Source: Flavobacteriaceae bacterium MAR_2010_72 (lineage in GTDB: Bacteria; Bacteroidota; Bacteroidia; Flavobacteriales; Flavobacteriaceae). Taken from it: 64,000 nucleotides of DNA. Below the pieces are notes generated by a model. That model did no database searches and was not told the DNA's origin. It saw only the letters and a list, made by a program, of their open reading frames with translations. Both the position numbers and the translations under genes were made by a program. Below, piece after piece: positions 2,846-37,717 of this stretch; the first letter of the stretch is position 1, and each line of letters starts with the position of its first letter. Location of the stretch: positions 186,001 to 250,000 of the forward strand of contig QXCW01000002.1 of NCBI GenBank assembly GCA_003550275.1. The letters are read 5' to 3'.

Positions 2846-3704
2846 ATACTTTTTTGTGGGTTCTAATAATAGCCTGCTCATTTTTATAATCTATCCAGTT
2901 CTGCCCATTTAAGCGACGCATAAGGTTGTCAAAATGACGCATAACGAAGATATTGTAGATGGCCTTACTTAAATTTTTTGGCCGTCTAGCAATTGCTCTT
3001 AAGCTCATCGAAAACCCTGGAGTTAGGTATTTCATGTAATGCCAATAACCTTCAGGCATATAAAGTACTTCACCATGATTAAGGGTTGTGCTGAAACCTT
3101 GTGCTAGTCTTAATGCAGGCCATTTTTCAAAATCTGGATTGGAAAAGTCAATATCTTCCCTTGTGATTAACGAATGGGGGACTTTATACAAAAAGTCATT
3201 TTGCTTTTGGTCAAACAGGATAATCTTTTTTTCGCCTTCAAAATGAAAGTGAAAAATGTTAGCCAAATCAATATCATAGTGCATAAAGGTGTGGGAATCC
3301 CTTCCACCAAAAAACAACATAGGAAGACCTTTTAGAAGCTTAAGTCCAAAATCTGGATAGGTGAAATCCTTCTGAAGTTGAGGAACTTCCTTTAATATAT
3401 TCCAAAGAAAGATGCGATATTTTGTCGGTTCTTTTTTAAGTAAATCAACATAATCACTCATCTTCATTTTGGAGTGAGGTTCATTAAAACCATCTTTATA
3501 ATCAACTGGTCTATCATCGTATAGCGGTACAATTTTATCACCAGCAACGGTTTTCATATAATCTAAATTCCAATTGCTATAGGCGGGCCAATCTTCAATA
3601 TAGCGCTCGATTACCACAGGTTTTTGTGGTTTATAGTAATTTGCTATAAAGTCCTCTTTTGTGATGCTTTTAACCCGAGGAATATCGATGAGATTCAATG
3701 TCAA
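2838..3704 (-). CDS. Cupin-like / JmjC-domain protein (putative Fe(II)/2-oxoglutarate oxygenase)
   Basis: The 288-residue protein belongs to the cupin_8/JmjC-like family. It shows the opening segment with PVVIERYIEDWPA (about 29-41), the metal-binding HxD at H142-x-D144 and a distal histidine in GYWHYM (H222), i.e. a complete Fe(II) facial triad. Such proteins hydroxylate protein or small-molecule targets using 2-oxoglutarate; the substrate is not predictable here. It converges on recX with an 8-bp overlap. No signal peptide is visible, so it is probably cytoplasmic. Family assignment is good; enzymatic role is inferred from the intact triad. Confidence 0.8.
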   Translation of the reverse strand: MTLNLIDIPRVKSITKEDFIANYYKPQKPVVIERYIEDWPAYSNWNLDYMKTVAGDKIVPLYDDRPVDYKDGFNEPHSKMKMSDYVDLLKKEPTKYRIFLWNILKEVPQLQKDFTYPDFGLKLLKGLPMLFFGGRDSHTFMHYDIDLANIFHFHFEGEKKIILFDQKQNDFLYKVPHSLITREDIDFSNPDFEKWPALRLAQGFSTTLNHGEVLYMPEGYWHYMKYLTPGFSMSLRAIARRPKNLSKAIYNIFVMRHFDNLMRRLNGQNWIDYKNEQAIIRTHKKVSI

Positions 3705-3801
3705 TTGCCTAAAAATTTAAGAGCCAAAGTTATGAAAACGTTACCAAAATTAAAATAGTATATAGTGACTTATGGTCAGTTAGAATAAGCTGATTTTAAA
3801 A

Positions 3802-4896
3802 CTATTTTACCGCTTTTGCTTTTACTTTGGCCACTTCGTTCCGTTCAATCTTGTGTTCTGGACGTGACCATTTAGGTTTTTCACCCAAGGCTTGGTATTG
3901 TGAGTTTGCGGCTTCAACAGTTTGCGGCTGCATTTTTTTAATAAAAGGTTTCTGTGGATTTAATCCTAGGAGTTTAAACATTTCCATGTCCTCATTCACA
4001 TCAGGATTAGGTGTCGTAAGTAGTTTATCACCTGCAAAAATTGAATTGGCACCAGCAAAAAAGCATAAGGCTTGACCTTCACGAGACATCTCGGTACGTC
4101 CAGCGCTCAATCGTACTTGTGTTTCGGGAATTACTATTCTGGTGGTCGCCACCATGCGTACCATTTCCCATATGGATATGGGTTTTTGGTCTTCTAAAGG
4201 TGTGCCTTCAACTGCAACTAAAGCGTTGATTGGAACTGATTCAGGCTGTGGATTTAACGTTGATAGTGCTACAAGCATCCCAGCTCGGTCTTCAATGGCT
4301 TCACCCATACCAATAATTCCTCCACTACAAACGGTGACATTGGTTTTACGAACATTGTCAATAGTTTGAAGTCGGTCTTCAAAACCTCTTGTAGAAATAA
4401 CCTCTTTATAATAGTCTTCTGAAGAATCTAAATTATGATTGTAGGCATACAATCCAGCTTCGGCAAGTCGCTTGGCCTGGTTTTCGGTAATCATCCCTAA
4501 TGTGCAGCACACTTCCATGTCAAGCTTGTTAATGGTACGTACCATTTCAAGCACTTGGTCAAACTCTTCACCATCTTTCACATTACGCCAAGCAGCACCC
4601 ATACAAACTCGAGAGCTTCCTGATGATTTTGCACGTAAGGCTTGTGCTTTTACTTGCTGAACACTCATTAAATCGTTGCCTTCAACATTGGTGTGATAAC
4701 GAGCAGCTTGTGGGCAATAACCACAATCTTCGGGGCAGCCACCAGTTTTTATGGATAGTAAAGTTGAAACCTGAACCGTATTTGGGTCGTGATGCAAACG
4801 ATGAATTGAAGCCGCTTCATAGAGTAACTCCATTAACGGCTTGTTATAAATAGTTAGGATTTCCTCTTTGGTCCAGTTATGTCTTATTTCGCTCAT
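3802..4896 (-). CDS. bioB: Biotin synthase
   Basis: This 364-residue radical SAM enzyme inserts sulfur into dethiobiotin, the last step of biotin synthesis. The radical SAM cluster motif CxxxCxxC is at C54, C58 and C61. Further BioB blocks are present: SSRVCMGAAWR, CCTLGM, YNHNLDSSEDYYKEV, CSGGIIGMGE and RLSAGR (ligands of the second cluster). The C-terminal tail beyond about residue 330 is basic and poorly conserved. It lies 71 bp downstream of the ketosynthase gene on the same strand and is probably cotranscribed with it. A TATTTTTG box ends 4 nt before the ATG and could also drive a leaderless bioB transcript. Confidence 0.97.
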   Translation of the reverse strand: MSEIRHNWTKEEILTIYNKPLMELLYEAASIHRLHHDPNTVQVSTLLSIKTGGCPEDCGYCPQAARYHTNVEGNDLMSVQQVKAQALRAKSSGSSRVCMGAAWRNVKDGEEFDQVLEMVRTINKLDMEVCCTLGMITENQAKRLAEAGLYAYNHNLDSSEDYYKEVISTRGFEDRLQTIDNVRKTNVTVCSGGIIGMGEAIEDRAGMLVALSTLNPQPESVPINALVAVEGTPLEDQKPISIWEMVRMVATTRIVIPETQVRLSAGRTEMSREGQALCFFAGANSIFAGDKLLTTPNPDVNEDMEMFKLLGLNPQKPFIKKMQPQTVEAANSQYQALGEKPKWSRPEHKIERNEVAKVKAKAVK

Positions 4897-4967
4897 AATT
4901 CAAAAATAATGTAATAAATATTCAAAATTCAAATTCTAAAATTCAAATTTTAAGTTCTTTTCAACAA
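4897..4967. repeat. Short AT-rich direct repeat between ketosynthase gene and bioB
   Basis: The spacer holds two copies of AAAATTCAAATT at 4924-4935 and 4938-4949, with a partial third copy nearer bioB. It is low-complexity and has no clear hairpin. A TATTTTTG box (minus strand, 4908-4901) sits next to the bioB start. No BirA-type operator was recognised. Confidence 0.5.
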
Positions 4968-6122
4968 TTAAGGTTTAGATATTAGTATTGAAACAGCATT
5001 TCCACCAAACCCAACAGCATTAATCATTATATTAGTTATGCTTTTAGGATTGTTCTGATTTAAAAAAGGAGTCGGTATAAATTCTTGATGTTTTAGCATT
5101 AAAACAGCCAATTCTACACTCAACATTCCACTTGCTCCAAAGGTATGACCTAATTTCCATTTATTGGTAGTCAATAAAGGATGAGTATTACCGAATACTT
5201 TTTTGATGGCTTTAAGCTCCGCTAAATCACCTTTAACTGTTCCAGGGGTGTGAGTGACAATCACATCAATTTCATTTGGATTGCGTGTGCCTAGAGCCAT
5301 TTTCATAGAACGTTGAAAACATGTTGCATCAGTCGATAACGACACATTATGTTCTAAAACTTCGGTTGCATAACCAATACCCGAGATTAACGCAAGCGCA
5401 TTTATCTTTTTTCTAGGTTCTAAACAGGCCATAGCCGCACCTTCACCCAGCACCATTGTGTTTTTAGTTTTATTAAAATCCAATGCTCGACATGGATAAC
5501 CATCAGGATTTATGTGTGTTTTGTTGGCATAGATTTTTAAAGCTTGCATTTGCGCTATAGTAAATGGCGTAAGCGGTGCTTCGCTGCCACCTACTAAAAA
5601 CGTATTGCACATGCCAGCATTTATCCACGCTATACCGTTGAGCAAGGCATGCAATGCCGTTGAACAGGTTATAGAATGTGAAATTTCTGGGCCTTTGGTT
5701 TGCAGATCATGCGCCACCCAAGATGAAATATTTCCAAGTGTTGTGGTTGGTGAACTTAAGGTATTACTTTTGCCACGAGTTAAAAAATCCTCGTGATAGG
5801 TTTCAAAGAGTTGCGTTGCCCCACGAGACGACCCAATATTAATACCGAAATTGTCATTTTTTGACCAACCAGCTTGTTTTGTAGCATTCCTTGCTGTGTA
5901 AATAGCGAACAAAACAGAATCATCCAAAGATTTATAGCTGTGCTCTGAATTTCTTAAATCATCAATTTGCTTTTTGCTAGCGCGCGACAGAGGTGACATG
6001 TAAACACCATTTTTTTCTTCAATAAAATGATGATTGTTTTGGTAATTTCCCCAAGTAGTTTCTAATGAATCTCCTATTGAAGAAACTGAAGAAATAGCCG
6101 TAATTGAAATTGGTTGCTGCAA
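4968..6122 (-). CDS. Beta-ketoacyl-ACP synthase-like protein of the biotin cluster
   Basis: A thiolase-fold condensing enzyme of the KAS I/II type. With the TTG start at 6122 it has 384 residues. The Cys-His-His triad is intact: C153 (SITCSTALHALL), H291 (VTHTPGTV, matching HGTGT) and H326 (KLGHTFGASG). The frame extends upstream to an ATG at 6182, but a textbook promoter (TTG-N18-TACATTTG, 6168-6140) lies inside that extension, and similarity to KAS proteins begins right after the TTG, so I prefer the shorter form. It precedes bioB on the same strand and lies near bioA/D/F. A dedicated condensing step in pimeloyl-chain formation is a plausible inference; no bioC or bioH is in the window. It could instead serve another fatty-acid-like pathway. 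Confidence 0.8.
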   Translation of the reverse strand: MQQPISITAISSVSSIGDSLETTWGNYQNNHHFIEEKNGVYMSPLSRASKKQIDDLRNSEHSYKSLDDSVLFAIYTARNATKQAGWSKNDNFGINIGSSRGATQLFETYHEDFLTRGKSNTLSSPTTTLGNISSWVAHDLQTKGPEISHSITCSTALHALLNGIAWINAGMCNTFLVGGSEAPLTPFTIAQMQALKIYANKTHINPDGYPCRALDFNKTKNTMVLGEGAAMACLEPRKKINALALISGIGYATEVLEHNVSLSTDATCFQRSMKMALGTRNPNEIDVIVTHTPGTVKGDLAELKAIKKVFGNTHPLLTTNKWKLGHTFGASGMLSVELAVLMLKHQEFIPTPFLNQNNPKSITNIMINAVGFGGNAVSILISKP

Positions 6123-6139
6123 GATTGTAAAGCTTTTGG

Positions 6140-6168
6140 CAAATGTAAGTTTTCTTAAAATGTAACAA
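6140..6168 (-). promoter_or_regulatory. Promoter of the ketosynthase-bioB unit
   Basis: On the minus strand a TTG (6168-6166) is followed after 18 nt by TACATTTG (6147-6140), matching the Bacteroidota -33/-7 consensus TTG/TAnnTTTG. It points to the ketosynthase gene and places the transcription start downstream of the 6182 ATG. Confidence 0.7.
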
Positions 6169-6212
6169 AAGCAAGACCTCAAATACTTATCTTTAAATCA
6201 AATAAAATTATA

Positions 6213-6644
6213 ATGGAAGAAGTGAGAAAGAAAAGCTGGTTTGGCAGAAATTGGCTTTGGGTGGTGCCTATTAGTGGTTGCTTAATGGTGATTTTCCTCA
6301 TTATTTTTGGAGTTGGAGCGGCTATTTTTGGCGTTTCCAAAGTGCTCAAGAATTCTACGCCCTATAGTTACGCTTTTGAATTAGCCGAAGAGAATGAAAA
6401 TGTAAGATATAGTCTAGGAAAGCCCATTGTGACTGATGGTGTTATGAGTGGAAACATAAACATAAATAATGATCGCGGTGAAGTGAATTTTACAATACCA
6501 ATAAAAGGATCAAAAGGGAAAGGTGCAATTATAGTTATTGGCGAAAAATATGACGGCGAATGGATCTATGAAAAGTTATATGTACTCATTAAAGAAACCA
6601 ATGAAGAAATTAACTTGCTAGATAAAAGTCTAGAAGGCTTCTAA
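6213..6644 (+). CDS. Cytochrome c oxidase assembly factor Coa1 family protein
   Basis: The 143-residue protein has a short basic N-terminus, one membrane segment (about residues 14-42, rich in V/I/G/F), then an extracytoplasmic domain of about 100 residues. The domain pattern (VRYSLGKPI, MSGNININ, GEVNFTIPIKGSKGKG, GEWIYEKLYV) matches the Coa1 family, whose eukaryotic members help assemble cytochrome oxidase; the bacterial role is not established. It is inverted between the two biotin units and overlaps the 3' end of bioA by 15 bp. A TATCTTTA -7-like box lies at 6188-6195. Confidence 0.7.
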   Translation: MEEVRKKSWFGRNWLWVVPISGCLMVIFLIIFGVGAAIFGVSKVLKNSTPYSYAFELAEENENVRYSLGKPIVTDGVMSGNININNDRGEVNFTIPIKGSKGKGAIIVIGEKYDGEWIYEKLYVLIKETNEEINLLDKSLEGF

Positions 6645-7895
6645 AACTTCTTCAATGGTTTTATAGACTTTTTGCAATTGCTCATCTGTAATCACATATG
6701 GCGCTTGAATATAAATAGTATTCCCCAATGGGCGCAAAAATACACCTCGCTCCATAAAGAATTTAAACAGTTCGTCTCTTAAATTTCCGTAACGTTCCAT
6801 TTCAATATTCAAGTCTAAAGCGTAGATGATTCCTGTCTGTCTTGTAGCTTTTATTTTAGGGTGATCTTTAATTCGTTTATTAAACCTTTTATGGGATGCG
6901 GTGATGCGATTTATGTTATTTTGTATCTCTTCCGATTGCAGCAATTCAATTCCAGCTAAAGCCGCAGTACATGCTAAAGGATTTGCTGAATAGGTATGCC
7001 CATGAAAAAAGCCTTTGCTGATATCATCACTGTAAAATGCATCGTAAATAGCCTGCGAACAGGTTGTAATTCCCATAGGCGCCAAACCTGCAGTTAAGGC
7101 CTTACTCAAACACATAATATTCGGTTTGGTATGTATTTGATCTGAAGCAAAAAAGGTTCCTGTTTTTCCAAAGCCAGTCATGACTTCGTCTGCAATTGTG
7201 ATAACTCCATGTGTACTTAAAAATCGGAGAATTTCGTTAAGCGCATTGGCATCGTGCATTTTCATAGCAGCAGCACCTTGAACTAAAGGTTCATAGACAA
7301 AACCAGCAACATTCTCCGTTTTTACAATGGTTTTTAAAAGTTCTAATATATCATTATGATTGGATCCGTTGGGGGTTGGGATTCTTTTGACCTTCAAAAA
7401 AAAGTCTTCAAAAGGCCCATTATAAACTGAAAGACCAGAAACACTCATCGAACCAAAAGTGTCACCGTGAAAGCCATCTTCAAATGCTATTAAAGTGTCC
7501 TTTTTCTTCCCTTGGTTAAAATGGAATTGGAGCGCCATTTTAATTCCAACTTCAACACTTGTAGAACCATTGTCACTAAAAAAAATCTTGTTTTGGTTTT
7601 TTGGTAATATTTTGATGAGTTCTTCGGAAAGCTTTATGGCCGGCTCATGGGTAAAACCACTAAAAACCACTTGATCTAAGGTCTTCATTTGGGCAGTTAC
7701 GCAATCCGTAATATAATCATTACAATGCCCATACATACAGGTATACCAAGAGGCTATGGCATCAATATACTTATTTCCGTTTTCATCTATAAGCTCGCAG
7801 CCTTTTGCCTTGGTAATGGCAATGGTTTCTGGATGCAACTTGTGTTGCGTTAATGGGTGCCATAAGTGTTTTTTATCTCGTTCTTTAAGACTCAT
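6630..7895 (-). CDS. bioA: Adenosylmethionine-8-amino-7-oxononanoate aminotransferase
   Basis: This 421-residue class III PLP aminotransferase makes 7,8-diaminopelargonic acid in biotin synthesis. It carries the BioA opening (LWHPLTQH), the PLP-phosphate contacts SDNGSTSVE (about 107-115), the acidic IADEVMTGFG with D236, and the Schiff-base lysine K265 in LSKALTAG. Length fits the family. The start codon overlaps the bioD stop by 4 nt, so the two are translationally coupled in the bioF-bioD-bioA operon. Confidence 0.97.
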   Translation of the reverse strand: MSLKERDKKHLWHPLTQHKLHPETIAITKAKGCELIDENGNKYIDAIASWYTCMYGHCNDYITDCVTAQMKTLDQVVFSGFTHEPAIKLSEELIKILPKNQNKIFFSDNGSTSVEVGIKMALQFHFNQGKKKDTLIAFEDGFHGDTFGSMSVSGLSVYNGPFEDFFLKVKRIPTPNGSNHNDILELLKTIVKTENVAGFVYEPLVQGAAAMKMHDANALNEILRFLSTHGVITIADEVMTGFGKTGTFFASDQIHTKPNIMCLSKALTAGLAPMGITTCSQAIYDAFYSDDISKGFFHGHTYSANPLACTAALAGIELLQSEEIQNNINRITASHKRFNKRIKDHPKIKATRQTGIIYALDLNIEMERYGNLRDELFKFFMERGVFLRPLGNTIYIQAPYVITDEQLQKVYKTIEEVLEAF

Positions 7896-8503
7896 AAATT
7901 CTTCTTGAAAAGTTCAGCATATTCTAAAACCACATTTTTATCAAAATAGGGTTCTTCCTCAATGCGCCCAATGACATTCACCTTTGTCATTTTCTTTATA
8001 ATATCTTCCGTTGATTGATGTTCGTTTCCACTAAAAATAATAGAAACATCAAAGCCCTTTTCCTTTAAAAAATGTACTGTTAATAGCGTATGATTAATAC
8101 TTCCCAAATAATGTCGTGATACTACCACCACTTTATAGTTGGGTTGTATCAAGTCTAATACAGTTTGGGTGTCATTTAGGGGAACCAATAAGCCTCCAGC
8201 ACCTTCAATGACCAAGTTATTTTTGGTTTTGGGAGGATTAATTTGCTTAACATCTATTGAAAGTCCATCAATAGCGGCCGCTGCATGTGGACTCATAGGC
8301 GTTTGTAATGCATAACCATTAGGATGAAAAACGGAAGTAGTATTTGAAACTAGCTGCTTTACTTTTTTTGTGTCACAATGGTCAAGATCGCCTGCTTGGA
8401 TTGGTTTCCAGTAATCTGCCTGTAGGGCTTCAACCAAAATGGCTGAAGCAATCGTTTTACCAACATCGGTTGAAATTCCTGTAACAAAAAAGGTCTTTTT
8501 CAT
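7892..8503 (-). CDS. bioD: Dethiobiotin synthetase
   Basis: The 203-residue ATP-dependent carboxylase closes the ureido ring to make dethiobiotin. The P-loop GISTDVGKT lies at residues 9-17 (K16). The PIQAGDLD segment (near 36) and EGAGGLLVPL (near 99-108) are the substrate and Mg-ATP blocks of BioD. It overlaps bioF upstream (8500-8503) and bioA downstream (7892-7895) by 4 nt each, the pattern of a coupled operon. The length is slightly short of the usual 220 residues, but no motif is missing. Confidence 0.95.
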   Translation of the reverse strand: MKKTFFVTGISTDVGKTIASAILVEALQADYWKPIQAGDLDHCDTKKVKQLVSNTTSVFHPNGYALQTPMSPHAAAAIDGLSIDVKQINPPKTKNNLVIEGAGGLLVPLNDTQTVLDLIQPNYKVVVVSRHYLGSINHTLLTVHFLKEKGFDVSIIFSGNEHQSTEDIIKKMTKVNVIGRIEEEPYFDKNVVLEYAELFKKNL

Positions 8504-34244: not shown

Positions 34245-34904
34245 ATGTCCTTAAAAAAAGCTTCATTTATAATTATCCTCATATTACTTATTGATCAATT
34301 AAGTAAAATTTATATCAAAACTCATTTTGCTTTAGGAGATAGAACTATTGTTTTTAATTGGTTTCAAATTGCATTTGTTGAAAATGATGGTATGGCCTGG
34401 GGTACCAAATTGAGTGATTTTATACCTTTTATTTCAGAAGAAACAGCCAAGCTCTCTTTAACATTATTTAGAATTATTGCCGTTTTAGGAATTGGGTATT
34501 GGTTAGTTTCATCTATTAAAAAACAAGCTTCAAAAACCTTGATCATTGCTGTTTCATTAATTTTTGCAGGAGCTCTTGGCAATATTATTGATTCTGTATT
34601 TTATGGAGTGTTGTTTAATGATAGTTATAGTCAAGTGGCGTCATTTTTACCAGCAGATGGTGGCTATGGAAGTTTATTTCATGGCAAGGTCGTAGACATG
34701 TTACATTTTCCAATTTGGAAAGGGGTAATGCCAGAATGGATTCCGTTTTTTGGTGGCAAGTTCTTTACCTTTTTTGAACCCGTTTTTAATATCGCCGATG
34801 TGGCTATAAGCACGGGAATAGGAATATTAGTATTCTTTAATAAAAAAGCTTTTTATGTTCCGGCACAAAAACCGGAAGAGCCTACCTATGAAGCAAAATT
34901 ATAA
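34245..34904 (+). CDS. lspA: Lipoprotein signal peptidase (signal peptidase II)
   Basis: The 219-residue membrane aspartyl protease cleaves prolipoprotein signal peptides after lipidation. It has four hydrophobic segments and the catalytic aspartates D151 (GKVVDMLHF) and D185 (FNIADVAIS), plus N-terminal LIDQLSKIYI and GALGNIIDSVFYG. It is longer than the usual 160 residues because of an insert at about 122-175 before the second Asp. It overlaps the convergent folate gene by 19 bp. Confidence 0.95.
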   Translation: MSLKKASFIIILILLIDQLSKIYIKTHFALGDRTIVFNWFQIAFVENDGMAWGTKLSDFIPFISEETAKLSLTLFRIIAVLGIGYWLVSSIKKQASKTLIIAVSLIFAGALGNIIDSVFYGVLFNDSYSQVASFLPADGGYGSLFHGKVVDMLHFPIWKGVMPEWIPFFGGKFFTFFEPVFNIADVAISTGIGILVFFNKKAFYVPAQKPEEPTYEAKL

Positions 34905-35455
34905 ATTGTAGTTGGAGTCACGCAAAAATCTAATTTTACATCCCCTTCATGCGTATCCTCAATACGTTTTTCAGGGTTAAAAAAGGATAACCCTATTTTA
35001 AGGGTTTCAGGTTTACAATGTGACAAAAATTTATCATAGTAACCTTTACCATAACCAACTCGATGGCCTTGCTCATCAAAAGCCAATAGAGGCACAAAAA
35101 CAACATTTATTTGATTTGAAGCAACTTCAATGCCATCTACGGGTTGAGGAATATTAAGTTTGTTGATTTTAATCGTCGTATTATCCGTAAGAAGATAACT
35201 TTTCAAAGTATCGGTTTTTAGATCAATTTTGGGGACTACAATGTTTTTATCTTTTCCTGAAAGGATATTCAAAATATACTCGGTATTGATTTCCCTTTGC
35301 TCAATAATAGATAGAAAAATATGGTAAAAGCTGGCTTCCCATATAGAAAGTTTTAATAACTGATTAGCGATTTTTAAACTTAAGTCTTCAACATCTTTTT
35401 CTGTTAAAGCATTTCGTTTGGACTTATACAAGTTTCGCAATTCAAGCTTTGTCAT
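34886..35455 (-). CDS. 5-formyltetrahydrofolate cyclo-ligase
   Basis: The 189-residue enzyme converts 5-formyl-THF to 5,10-methenyl-THF with ATP. It shows an N-terminal LRNLYKSKRNALTEKD, the NVVFVPLLAFDEQGHRVGYGKGYYDKFL block (about 130-150) with the GYGKGYYD nucleotide motif, and a C-terminal TPTTIY. It is the last gene of the four-gene minus-strand operon, sharing a 4-nt overlap with the aspartoacylase-like gene. Role in folate recycling is firm. Confidence 0.92.
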   Translation of the reverse strand: MTKLELRNLYKSKRNALTEKDVEDLSLKIANQLLKLSIWEASFYHIFLSIIEQREINTEYILNILSGKDKNIVVPKIDLKTDTLKSYLLTDNTTIKINKLNIPQPVDGIEVASNQINVVFVPLLAFDEQGHRVGYGKGYYDKFLSHCKPETLKIGLSFFNPEKRIEDTHEGDVKLDFCVTPTTIYNFAS

Positions 35456-36423
35456 TTCAATTTAGATGTAATATGAAACAGTGCATCACCTTGATAAACT
35501 ATAGGCGATTCATTAACATTTATAATGTAGCCACCTTGTAAAGCTTTTACGGGATGATTAAATTTTCCGTAGGGATCGGTTATAGTTCCTAAAACTTCAC
35601 CTCTCGTTACTTTCGTGCCAATTTTAATCGAAGCCCTAAACATGCCTGAAAAATTAGCCCGTTGCCAACGACTTTTATTAATAAAAACAGGTTTTGTTGT
35701 TGGTTTTGTAGCTTTGAATCTAGCGTTGAGCATTCCTAAATTATTAAGAACACGTTTCACTCCATTTAAGGCAATCGTGGTTACATGCTTATCAATATGG
35801 AATGATTTTCCGCCTTCAAATAGTAGTATAGGTTTACCTAATTTATTGCAAGTACTTCTAAATGTTTTTTTAATATCTTTTGAATATAAAATAAATGGAG
35901 CTCCAAATATTGTAGCAAGGCTCTCTAATTCTGCGTTTTTTTCTGTAATTCGAATTTGTGGGGCATTAAACCGTCCTGCACCACCAGTATGAAAATCGAT
36001 GATAAAATCAACCTCTTTTACAACTTCATTAACAAGCTTATAGGCCACCCTGCTTGCCAAAGAACCTTTTTTAAGCCCAGGAAAAACCCTGTTTAAATCC
36101 CTTCCGTCAGGGAATTCTCGTTTTAAGTTGATGAACCCAAAAATATTAATGACCGGAATACAAATTATGGTACCACATTTTGGTTTATTCATTCCTGATG
36201 CAATTATTTGACGTATAATTTCCACACCGTTAACCTCATCTCCATGAATCCCAGCTGTAAGCAGTACAATTGGACCTGGTTTAATTGAGCGTTCAATAAT
36301 TACAGGTACGTCAACACTTGAGGATGTATGTAAATTGGCCACATCAAAACGGGCTTCATAACTTTCGCCTGCTTTTATGGACTTACCTAGAATAGTAATG
36401 ACTTTTTTATGGACCTGGTTCAT
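35452..36423 (-). CDS. Succinylglutamate desuccinylase/aspartoacylase family protein (M14-like Zn hydrolase)
   Basis: The 323-residue protein has the zinc-binding HxxE at H60-GD-E63 ([15 protein letters not shown]), the arginine block [10 protein letters not shown] (107-116) and the third ligand H145 in DFHTGG. The C-terminal 75 residues carry a beta-domain ([20 protein letters not shown]) seen in the AspA-like group. Members cleave N-acyl or amide bonds of small acidic molecules; the substrate here is unknown. It overlaps both neighbours by 4 nt, after the RimK ligase and before the folate gene. Confidence 0.85.
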
Positions 36424-37295
36424 TTATGGTTTTTTTCAATATAGGTAATGATGGCTCTAGCAATATTTTTTCCAGTAGCCATTTCTATCCCTTCTAGTCC
36501 AGGGGTTGAATTGACTTCTAGGAGTAGTGGTCCTCTGGCAGATTGTAGCATGTCTACACCACAAACAGGTAATTTTAATACTTTGGCGGCATTCATTGCA
36601 AGTCTAATTTCTGCTTCATTTAATTTAATAATATTGGCGCTGCCACCTCTGTGCAGATTGGATCGAAATTCGCCCTCTTTGCCTTGTCGTTTCATTGCTC
36701 CTACAACTTGGCCGTCTACCATAAGCACTCTAATATCAGCACCTTTAGCTTCTTTTATGAATTCTTGAACAATAACCCGAGCTTCCAATCCATTAAAGGC
36801 TTCCAAAACCGATTCGGCTGCATTTTTTGTTTCTGCTAAAACGACACCTAATCCTTGAGTGCCTTCAAGAAGTTTTATAATTACAGGTACGCCACCAACG
36901 TGTTCGATGACCTCTTCGACATCGCGCGAATAATTCGTGAAAACAGTTTTGGGCATACCAATCCCTGCTTTACTTAAGCGCTGTAAACTTTTTAATTTGT
37001 CCCTTGAACGCAAAATAGCATCTGATGTGGCAATGCTAAACACGTTCATCATTTCAAATTGGCGAACAACCGCACAGCCATAAAAGGTGATCGAAGCTCC
37101 AATTCTGGGTATAATGGCATCCACATAATCTAAATAGCGGTCTTTAAAGTAAATAGTGGGTTTTTCCTTTTCAATAATGATGTCGCACTTTAAGGGATCT
37201 ATGACTTCTACCTTATGGTTTCGTTTTCTGCCTTCCTCAATTAGGCGTTGGGTAGAATATAAACCTGTATTTCTTGATAATATAACTATGTTCAT
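36420..37295 (-). CDS. rimK: RimK-family ATP-grasp ligase (alpha-L-glutamate ligase-like)
   Basis: The 291-residue protein has the RimK N-terminal domain ([34 protein letters not shown]) and the ATP-grasp fold (about 105-290: [77 protein letters not shown]). RimK adds glutamates to the C-terminus of ribosomal protein S6 in E. coli; related enzymes ligate other amino acids. Between a retropepsin-like protease and an amidohydrolase, it may build a peptide or polyglutamate tag; the target is not known. Confidence 0.88.
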
Positions 37296-37717
37296 GCTTG
37301 TTTTTGATTATAGGATTGATTTTCAAGATCGACATCAACCATAAACTTTTTGCTTAAAAACTGCCGACCAATCAAAACGGGAAACCTCATATCATCCCTA
37401 GTGCTTAAAGTTAAGTTAATCCTATAGGTTTTACCAAAGAATATGACTTCAGATTTTATTTTAAACCGATTTTCTTTAAAACCATTACTGCTTTTCACAT
37501 CTGTACGGGAGTAGTTTTCAAATATAATATTTTCACTTTTAAAGTTGGGATGCCCTTTACTGCTAAATGTACATCGTAAGGTATTGTTTACTTCAGTAAT
37601 TTCAGAGCAGTGAATTGCAGAAGTATAGGCCCCTGTGTCAATTTTAACATCAACATTAAAAAGATTAAGTTTTGGAAAATCTACTTTATCAACTCTCCCA
37701 ATTATTTTTTTCGTCAT
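37292..37717 (-). CDS. Retropepsin-like protease (putative ATP-dependent zinc protease family)
   Basis: The 141-residue protein belongs to the RimB-like family historically named ATP-dependent zinc protease. The aspartyl-protease signature D27-T-G-A30 ([17 protein letters not shown]) and a second-strand [15 protein letters not shown] block are retropepsin features; no zinc motif is seen. A monomer of this size would have to dimerise to form an active site. It is the first gene of the four-gene operon, and its stop overlaps the rimK start by 4 nt. Confidence 0.85.

Follow-up and report, generated by a model that had tools for sequence, protein, structure and literature searches.

The stretch of DNA considered here, referred to as the window, comprises 64,000 nucleotides (nt) of Flavobacteriaceae bacterium MAR_2010_72 (assembly GCA_003550275.1, contig QXCW01000002.1, positions 186,001 to 250,000 of the forward strand). 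Its minus strand carries four consecutive genes, encoding a RimB-like retropepsin, a RimK-type ligase, a zinc hydrolase of the AstE/AspA fold designated AsTe, and a 5-formyltetrahydrofolate cyclo-ligase. The first three would, with a probability of about 0.5, constitute a module for writing and erasing alpha-linked glutamate, in which AsTe would be the exo-acting eraser and a candidate for a 'reset' enzyme. The initial annotation had described the four genes as coupled by 4-nt overlaps, and all open reading frames (ORFs) and the three ATGA junctions, at which stop and start codons overlap, are indeed found:

37292..37717, minus strand: RimB-like retropepsin (PF05618), 141 amino acids (aa), ATG start; predicted polyglutamate endopeptidase
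36420..37295, minus strand: RimK ATP-grasp alpha-L-glutamate ligase ("writer"), 291 aa, ATG start
35452..36423, minus strand: AsTe, zinc hydrolase with the AstE/AspA fold, from a subfamily linked to RimK, 323 aa, ATG start; predicted to be exo-acting on alpha-glutamyl chains
34886..35455, minus strand: 5-formyltetrahydrofolate cyclo-ligase, 189 aa, ATG start; same operon, outside the conserved module
37292..37295, minus strand: rimB/rimK stop/start overlap, ATGA, 4 nt, read from the sequence
36420..36423, minus strand: rimK/AsTe stop/start overlap, ATGA, 4 nt, read from the sequence
35452..35455, minus strand: AsTe/cyclo-ligase stop/start overlap, ATGA, 4 nt, read from the sequence

In public databases, AsTe is labelled succinylglutamate desuccinylase/aspartoacylase and RimB either ATP-dependent zinc protease or RimK/LysX family protein; such labels obscure the link between the two.

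Linkage of RimK, AsTe and RimB

Within 120 genomes of the window's family (cut-offs E ≤ 1e-20 for AsTe, E ≤ 0.001 for RimB and E ≤ 1e-30 for RimK), AsTe was found in 94, of which 90 contain a close AsTe and four (G032, G093, G095, G103) a weak second paralogue only. RimK is present in 99 of the genomes and RimB in 62, the latter having been sought in this sample only and with a single query sequence, by which diverged copies may be missed. The RimK matches occupy 116 places, namely 100 free-standing genes and 16 RimB-RimK fusions (fused RimBK), defined by an open frame of at least 456 aa, which Pfam confirmed in the one case checked (L038). AsTe is located directly downstream of 88 of the 100 free-standing genes, a second fragment row of G078 being excluded from the count; 44 of these loci possess RimB directly upstream of RimK and 44 do not. 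Ten further free-standing genes occupy the outer RimK position in rimK-rimB-rimK-AsTe loci, and two (G022, G102) are without AsTe. A RimB match is absent from 36 of the 44 genomes with the RimK-AsTe arrangement, and AsTe is kept there. A role of AsTe as strict substitute for RimB was rejected, both being present in 44 family loci.

Individual loci depart from these arrangements. The rimK-rimB-rimK-AsTe order occurs in ten genomes (G077 with locus L048, G053, G038, G073, G100, G062, G075, G086, G026 and G072), whose outer RimK shares 50-57% identity with the query RimK. In G022 (L047), the cyclo-ligase gene follows directly after RimB-RimK, AsTe being absent from the operon. At G035:C8:75580-75962, the RimB match falls into two parts, one with several internal stops, next to full-length RimK and AsTe matches; RimB may be decaying there.

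A second sample comprised 247 Bacteroidota genomes, from which 11 weak AsTe rows (E > 1e-60, 25-30% identity) were left out. A close AsTe is encoded in 74 of the 81 RimK-bearing genomes versus none of the 166 genomes devoid of RimK. By genus, RimK occurs in 39 and AsTe, including weak paralogues, in 36 of 122 genera. Linkage to AsTe was observed for 54 of 68 free-standing RimK genes, among which G295 (L050) is counted because PF05618 does not match its long frame. In one genus of the window's family (14 genomes), fused RimBK is the only RimK found and AsTe is still present in 13 of 14 genomes, with 51-57% identity to the AsTe of the window. At the four loci read in this genus, AsTe and the cyclo-ligase gene are adjacent, beside uvrC and a patatin-like gene and without rimB or rimK, and in two of the four, lspA and ileS are also retained on the opposite flank. 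Loss of rimB-rimK from the uvrC locus is the simplest explanation; the genus is a single lineage and, thus, represents one event.

Outside Bacteroidota, a profile search with an AsTe alignment (A3; one genome per species) was evaluated for the best 80 loci of at least 571 relatives. By record title, these belong to Gamma-, Alpha-, and Zetaproteobacteria, Campylobacterota, Bdellovibrionota, Nitrospirota, Nitrospinota, Acidobacteria, Desulfobacterota, and others, some of the group names having been assigned by the analyst. RimK is found in the flanks of 62 of the 80 loci, RimB in those of 51, and both in those of 49; several of the 18 loci without RimK are short or lie at contig ends. Together with six plasmid loci chosen from 30 of 576 records, a set of 86 loci was obtained, across which the orders RimB-RimK-AsTe, RimK-AsTe, RimK-AsTe-RimB, RimK-RimB-AsTe and RimB-AsTe-RimK are encountered. 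That the three genes stay together despite reshuffling is good evidence for a common task. Their pairwise distances are correlated (Mantel r 0.50-0.56, 0 of 2000 permutations, 54 loci), as shared descent would likewise produce. The module even reaches the archaeon Methanolobus bombayensis (L162, L263), which encodes RimB, RimK and AsTe consecutively and an MscS-type gene at a distance of about 3.5 kb. Given the RimK-AsTe adjacency in the family and the joint recurrence of the three genes in other phyla in varied orders, the gene set goes beyond chance, and the conservation in relatives, on which the initial annotation had made its proposal depend, is borne out by this survey.

Properties of the three enzymes

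The ligase matches the Pfam families Rimk_N (141 bits; cut-off 26.4) and RimK (220 bits; cut-off 21) and passes the S6--L-glutamate ligase equivalog NF007764 with 366 bits (cut-off 331) over residues 1-289 of 291. In the PDB, it matches the 'probable alpha-L-glutamate ligase' 7qyr (E = 1e-106) and RimK 4iwx (2.3e-93). Its scores against the models of cyanophycin synthetase (60 bits) and MptN (153.7 bits) are under the cut-offs of 850, by far, and 350, respectively. To judge from these matches, the window protein is a RimK-type ligase; ribosomal protein S6 is not supported as its target. RimK of Pseudomonas fluorescens extends RpsF (S6) by glutamates and in vitro forms free poly-alpha-glutamate of up to 28-36 units (PMC11957791).

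The retropepsin attains 55 bits against PF05618 (cut-off 27) and 57.3 bits against the RimB equivalog NF052261 (cut-off 200); on these scores it is filed as a RimB-like PF05618 protein and not as the RimB equivalog. It contains the catalytic motif D27-T-G29, of which D27 and G29 are invariant in alignments of 15 and 25 sequences; in the same alignments, K25 is nearly invariant and R84 and R107 are invariant. The polyglutamate-binding residues of the related protein RloA are K46, R114 and R137 (PMC12239564). K25, R84 and R107 are their counterparts, with a K-to-D spacing of 2 and an R-to-R spacing of 23 in both proteins, a correspondence that rests on spacing and not on superposition. The structure model (predicted local distance difference test, pLDDT, 87) has its best PDB folds in RloA (9g58/9g59) and 2pma, followed by HIV-2 protease; for the RloA chains, a Foldseek E of 6e-8 and TM values of 0.62-0.76 were obtained. 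The RimB-like protein is predicted to be a polyglutamate endopeptidase. RimB of Pseudomonas takes glutamates off and, in addition, stimulates RimK (PMC11957791). Four to five glutamates are left by RimB, for which reason a second, unidentified 'reset' protease was postulated in 2020 (PMC7343187).

AsTe contains the AstE_AspA_cat domain (PF24827; 109.6 bits, cut-off 25) and reaches none of the three NCBIfam equivalogs compared, that is, AstE (TIGR03242; 17 of 305.65 bits), DoeB (TIGR02994; 79.8 of 402.7 bits) and aspartoacylase (NF002601; 22.7 of 180 bits). Its identification with any one of these enzymes was rejected on that ground; fold and zinc site are what it has in common with DoeB/EutE, AstE and aspartoacylase. 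H60, E63, H145, N111, R112, E203, R158 and R189 are invariant in alignments of 26 and 22 sequences. By the carboxypeptidase/aspartoacylase fold, H60, E63 and H145 are presumably the zinc set, N111-R112 the carboxylate clamp, and E203 the base. The structure model (pLDDT 91.2) is closest to 3cdx (Z 35.4) and DoeB 6twm (Z 34.6); carboxypeptidases are among the fold neighbours at Z of about 17-20, and CphZ (8ein/8eip) is matched over nearly the full length (Z 27.4, 18-19% identity over 297 residues). A second AstE/AspA-fold protein with 27-30% identity and an N-terminal extension is encoded outside the window (G000:C2:145755-146624, L049), adjoining a sodium:sulfate/citrate-type symporter gene; no RimK is present in the 10 kb read there.

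Several known systems resemble the gene set described here. RimABK of P. fluorescens likewise combines RimK and RimB in one operon for writing and erasing alpha-glutamate, albeit with the phosphodiesterase RimA as the third gene in place of AsTe; further differences are the low RimB score (57 of 200 bits) and the S6 without terminal Glu in the present organism (PMC11957791, PMC7343187). RloABC of Pseudomonas aeruginosa comprises a related polyglutamate-cleaving retropepsin and an ATP-grasp protein and has a hypo-osmotic phenotype; it differs in that RloA is secreted, RloB is an inactive transglutaminase membrane protein, and the operon as described is without AsTe (PMC12239564). Fused RimBK, in which both domains reside in one gene, is found mostly in Flavobacteriales and Rhodobacterales (PMC11957791); in contrast to the window set, none of the 16 family cases is directly followed by AsTe. 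In cyanophycin metabolism, the polymer is made by a synthetase, cyanophycinase frees dipeptides, and these are hydrolysed by enzymes of the 'succinylglutamate desuccinylase/aspartoacylase family' or of M14 (PMC10206079, PMC12661447). The cyanophycin cycle with CphZ follows the same logic of an ATP-grasp ligase, a protease and an AstE-fold finisher, with different polymer and protease; the likeness of AsTe to CphZ is a fold resemblance, used as an analogy and not as a sign of membership.

Proposed pathway and alternatives

In the proposed pathway, RimK would attach L-glutamate through alpha linkages to an acceptor or to free glutamate, and the RimB-like retropepsin would cut long chains internally; both activities are established for relatives, and the binding residues of the retropepsin are kept here. 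AsTe would then take the remaining glutamates off the C-terminal end, one or a few at a time, and by this action would reset the acceptor or return free glutamate. Enzymes of this fold cut an amide beside a free carboxylate, for which the C-terminal glutamate of a chain would be a fitting substrate. As RimB stops at four to five glutamates and needs a second protease, AsTe would be a candidate for the 'reset' protease (PMC7343187). The idea of a write-and-erase system had been put forward in the initial annotation; its glutamate part is supported, with the RimK-RimB pair of writer and eraser being already published (PMC11957791, PMC7343187), and its folate and S6 parts did not hold. AsTe as the usual third partner was not found in the literature covered. 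Among the papers listed, none linking bacterial RimK with an AsTe-type hydrolase was found, comparative genomics of amidoligases lying outside the coverage, so that the link may be published. A comparative-genomic study of amidoligases by Iyer from 2009 reportedly treats RimK-like gene neighbourhoods. A text search for AsTe-type terms in PMC11957791, PMC12239564, PMC7343187 and PMC10206079 revealed no link of RimK with such a hydrolase.

Several points weigh against this pathway. The present data establish the gene content, the operon and its conservation, the predicted folds and the residues of the active sites; the activity of AsTe, the end from which it cuts and the acceptor are inferences. 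For every RimK-linked AsTe, the hydrolase role is a prediction, and the nearest solved folds of AsTe are N-deacylases, not peptidases. None of the family sample's 16 fused RimBK genes is directly followed by AsTe (in G002, it lies about 1 kb from fused RimBK on the opposite strand), and a close AsTe is missing in seven of the nine family genomes with fused RimBK only, being present in G002 and G055; AsTe would, therefore, not always be needed. In the phylum sample, seven of the 81 RimK genomes have no close AsTe, 14 of the 68 free-standing RimK genes have no adjoining AsTe, and the co-occurrence statistics ignore kinship.

It is conceivable, if rather unlikely, that the module acts on a small metabolite, RimK joining glutamate to a small acceptor, N-acylated or otherwise, and AsTe deacylating the product. 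Mammals provide a parallel in the N-acetylaspartylglutamate enzymes RIMKLA/RIMKLB together with aspartoacylase (ASPA). The closest solved folds as well as the best NCBIfam match of AsTe, DoeB in either case, would suit this explanation, albeit at 79.8 of 402.7 bits for the latter. It is countered by AsTe reaching no acylase equivalog, by RimK passing the S6-ligase equivalog cut-off, and by the binding and cutting of polyglutamate by RimB-like proteins (PMC12239564), which are often encoded in the same operon. That AsTe is a mere neighbour in the operon, with a separate role and retained by chance and vertical descent, is considered quite improbable; the correlation of RimK and AsTe distances (Mantel r 0.50) is expected from shared descent alone, and the free-standing RimK genes of the phylum sample without AsTe alongside agree with it, but the genes occur together in several orders across phyla, and RimK-less genomes have no close AsTe.

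The cyclo-ligase gene had been regarded in the initial annotation as a meaningful member of the operon, folates being themselves polyglutamylated. Its product matches 5-FTHF_cyc-lig (102 bits, cut-off 27) and TIGR02727 (124 bits, cut-off 84.9). Besides overlapping AsTe in the window, the gene is at most 300 nt from AsTe in 64 of the 85 family genomes with both, and at most 2.2 kb away in three more; it was found neither beside AsTe at the 18 loci of other Bacteroidota families nor anywhere in the 86-locus set drawn from other phyla and from plasmids. Cyclo-ligase and AsTe stay together at the uvrC locus in genomes without rimB-rimK there, as simple synteny predicts. The adjacency is, thus, local synteny seen only within the window's family, and a folate link of the module was rejected, a conserved linkage to folate genes not being found outside the family. 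Editing of folate polyglutamates, with the cyclo-ligase marking the pathway, RimK adding glutamates to folates and AsTe removing them, is accordingly rated as very improbable, notwithstanding one AsTe elsewhere that overlaps a PTPS gene (L042) and the glutamylation of tetrahydromethanopterin by RimK relatives, to whose MptN model the window RimK is similar at 153.7 of 350 bits. The folates of Escherichia coli carry alpha-linked glutamates, which would also speak for this explanation.

Tagging of S6 in the classic manner of E. coli and Pseudomonas, in which RimK would glutamylate the C-terminus of S6 and RimB and AsTe would trim it, is judged improbable in this organism. It would be favoured by the equivalog match of RimK and by the tagging and trimming of RpsF reported for Pseudomonas (PMC7343187, PMC11957791). 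The S6 of the organism itself ends in ...RNKQKA, and a C-terminal Glu or Asp is found in none of the 70 S6 tails read out of the 112 family genomes with an S6 match; the tails are rich in Lys and Arg, irrespective of whether the genome contains RimK (52 tails) or not (18 tails). Moreover, no S6 match was obtained in Methanolobus, which possesses the whole module, and genomes with an RpsF lacking the terminal Glu have been noted before (PMC11957791). S6, which the initial annotation had named as an example of a Glu-extended protein, is, hence, not supported as acceptor, and to judge from the tails the acceptor in this organism is probably not S6.

Acceptors, ion and turgor neighbours, and significance

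Glu-Glu-Glu-stop occurs at six places in the genome of the organism, five of which are ends of open frames of at least 142 aa, namely those of bS16, bL17, uS2, an FtsH-type protease and a DUF5606/DUF6852 protein. A reversed control gave four matches, so that the count does not exceed chance and interest attaches solely to the kinds of protein. The C-termini of bS16, bL17 and uS2 (L310, L314, L315) consist of three or four Glu, in contrast to that of S6, and the ribosomal nature of three of the five proteins offers a post hoc lead to possible acceptors.

Among 314 ORFs at the 86 loci outside Bacteroidota and on plasmids, the top recurrent neighbour families are MgtE (14 loci), MscS (14 loci) and CorA (11 loci), each named by Pfam from one representative; at least one of the three occurs at 33 of the 86 loci. 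In wider windows outside Bacteroidota, an ion or channel gene is present in nine of 19 module windows and one of 22 control windows (Fisher p 0.0025), a value that is not independent, the families having been chosen after their recurrence was seen and the module windows overlapping the discovery loci. Module and control windows share one set of 30 genomes, the controls not being matched one per module window. The non-overlap ORF filter lost genes in G+C-rich windows, and a recount without it gave again nine of 19 and one of 22. Six windows, in which the PF05618 place is other than the seed locus, were kept apart; three of them (L269, L271, L274) contain an ion or channel gene, L269 and L271 being loci of the order RimK-AsTe-RimB. 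On a plasmid of Photobacterium sp. GJ3 (record positions 3031-8035, L309), RimK, AsTe, CorA, MscS and MgtE are encoded head to tail on one strand. The number K05844 used below is taken by us to denote rimK. In brackish relatives, K05844, a mechanosensitive channel and a magnesium uptake system are each commoner than in marine ones (PMC10219603). In Photobacterium damselae, rimK was up 52-fold and an mgtE 5-fold at 1% NaCl relative to 3% (PMC10308900). Both sets of data agree with a link of the module to ions and turgor.

On this basis, it is proposed tentatively, as a reading held to be unlikely, that RimK, RimB and AsTe primarily serve a cycle of poly-alpha-glutamate that parallels, for glutamate, the cyanophycin cycle and in which glutamate would be stored as an osmotically compact polyanion and released on demand, tied to divalent-cation and turgor control through MgtE, CorA and MscS. 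Tagging of S6 would be derived, and the protein acceptors in Bacteroidota, if any, would be other ribosomal proteins ending in Glu, for example bS16, bL17 and uS2. Against an osmotic role stand the finding of no ion or channel genes of these kinds in the window and their occurrence near only two of 40 Bacteroidota loci (one of 40 with the ORF filter), the unchanged growth of a P. aeruginosa rimB deletion mutant in hypo-osmotic medium (PMC12239564), and the low level of free polymer in wild-type Pseudomonas (PMC11957791).

Summarizing, AsTe, located directly downstream of RimK in 88 of 100 free-standing cases within the family, is a concrete candidate for the 'reset' protease demanded in 2020. 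The neighbours of the module point to salt and turgor control. If the usual task of RimK is not the modification of S6, the term 'ribosomal protein S6 modification' would misname a widespread module that extends to an archaeon without an S6 match.

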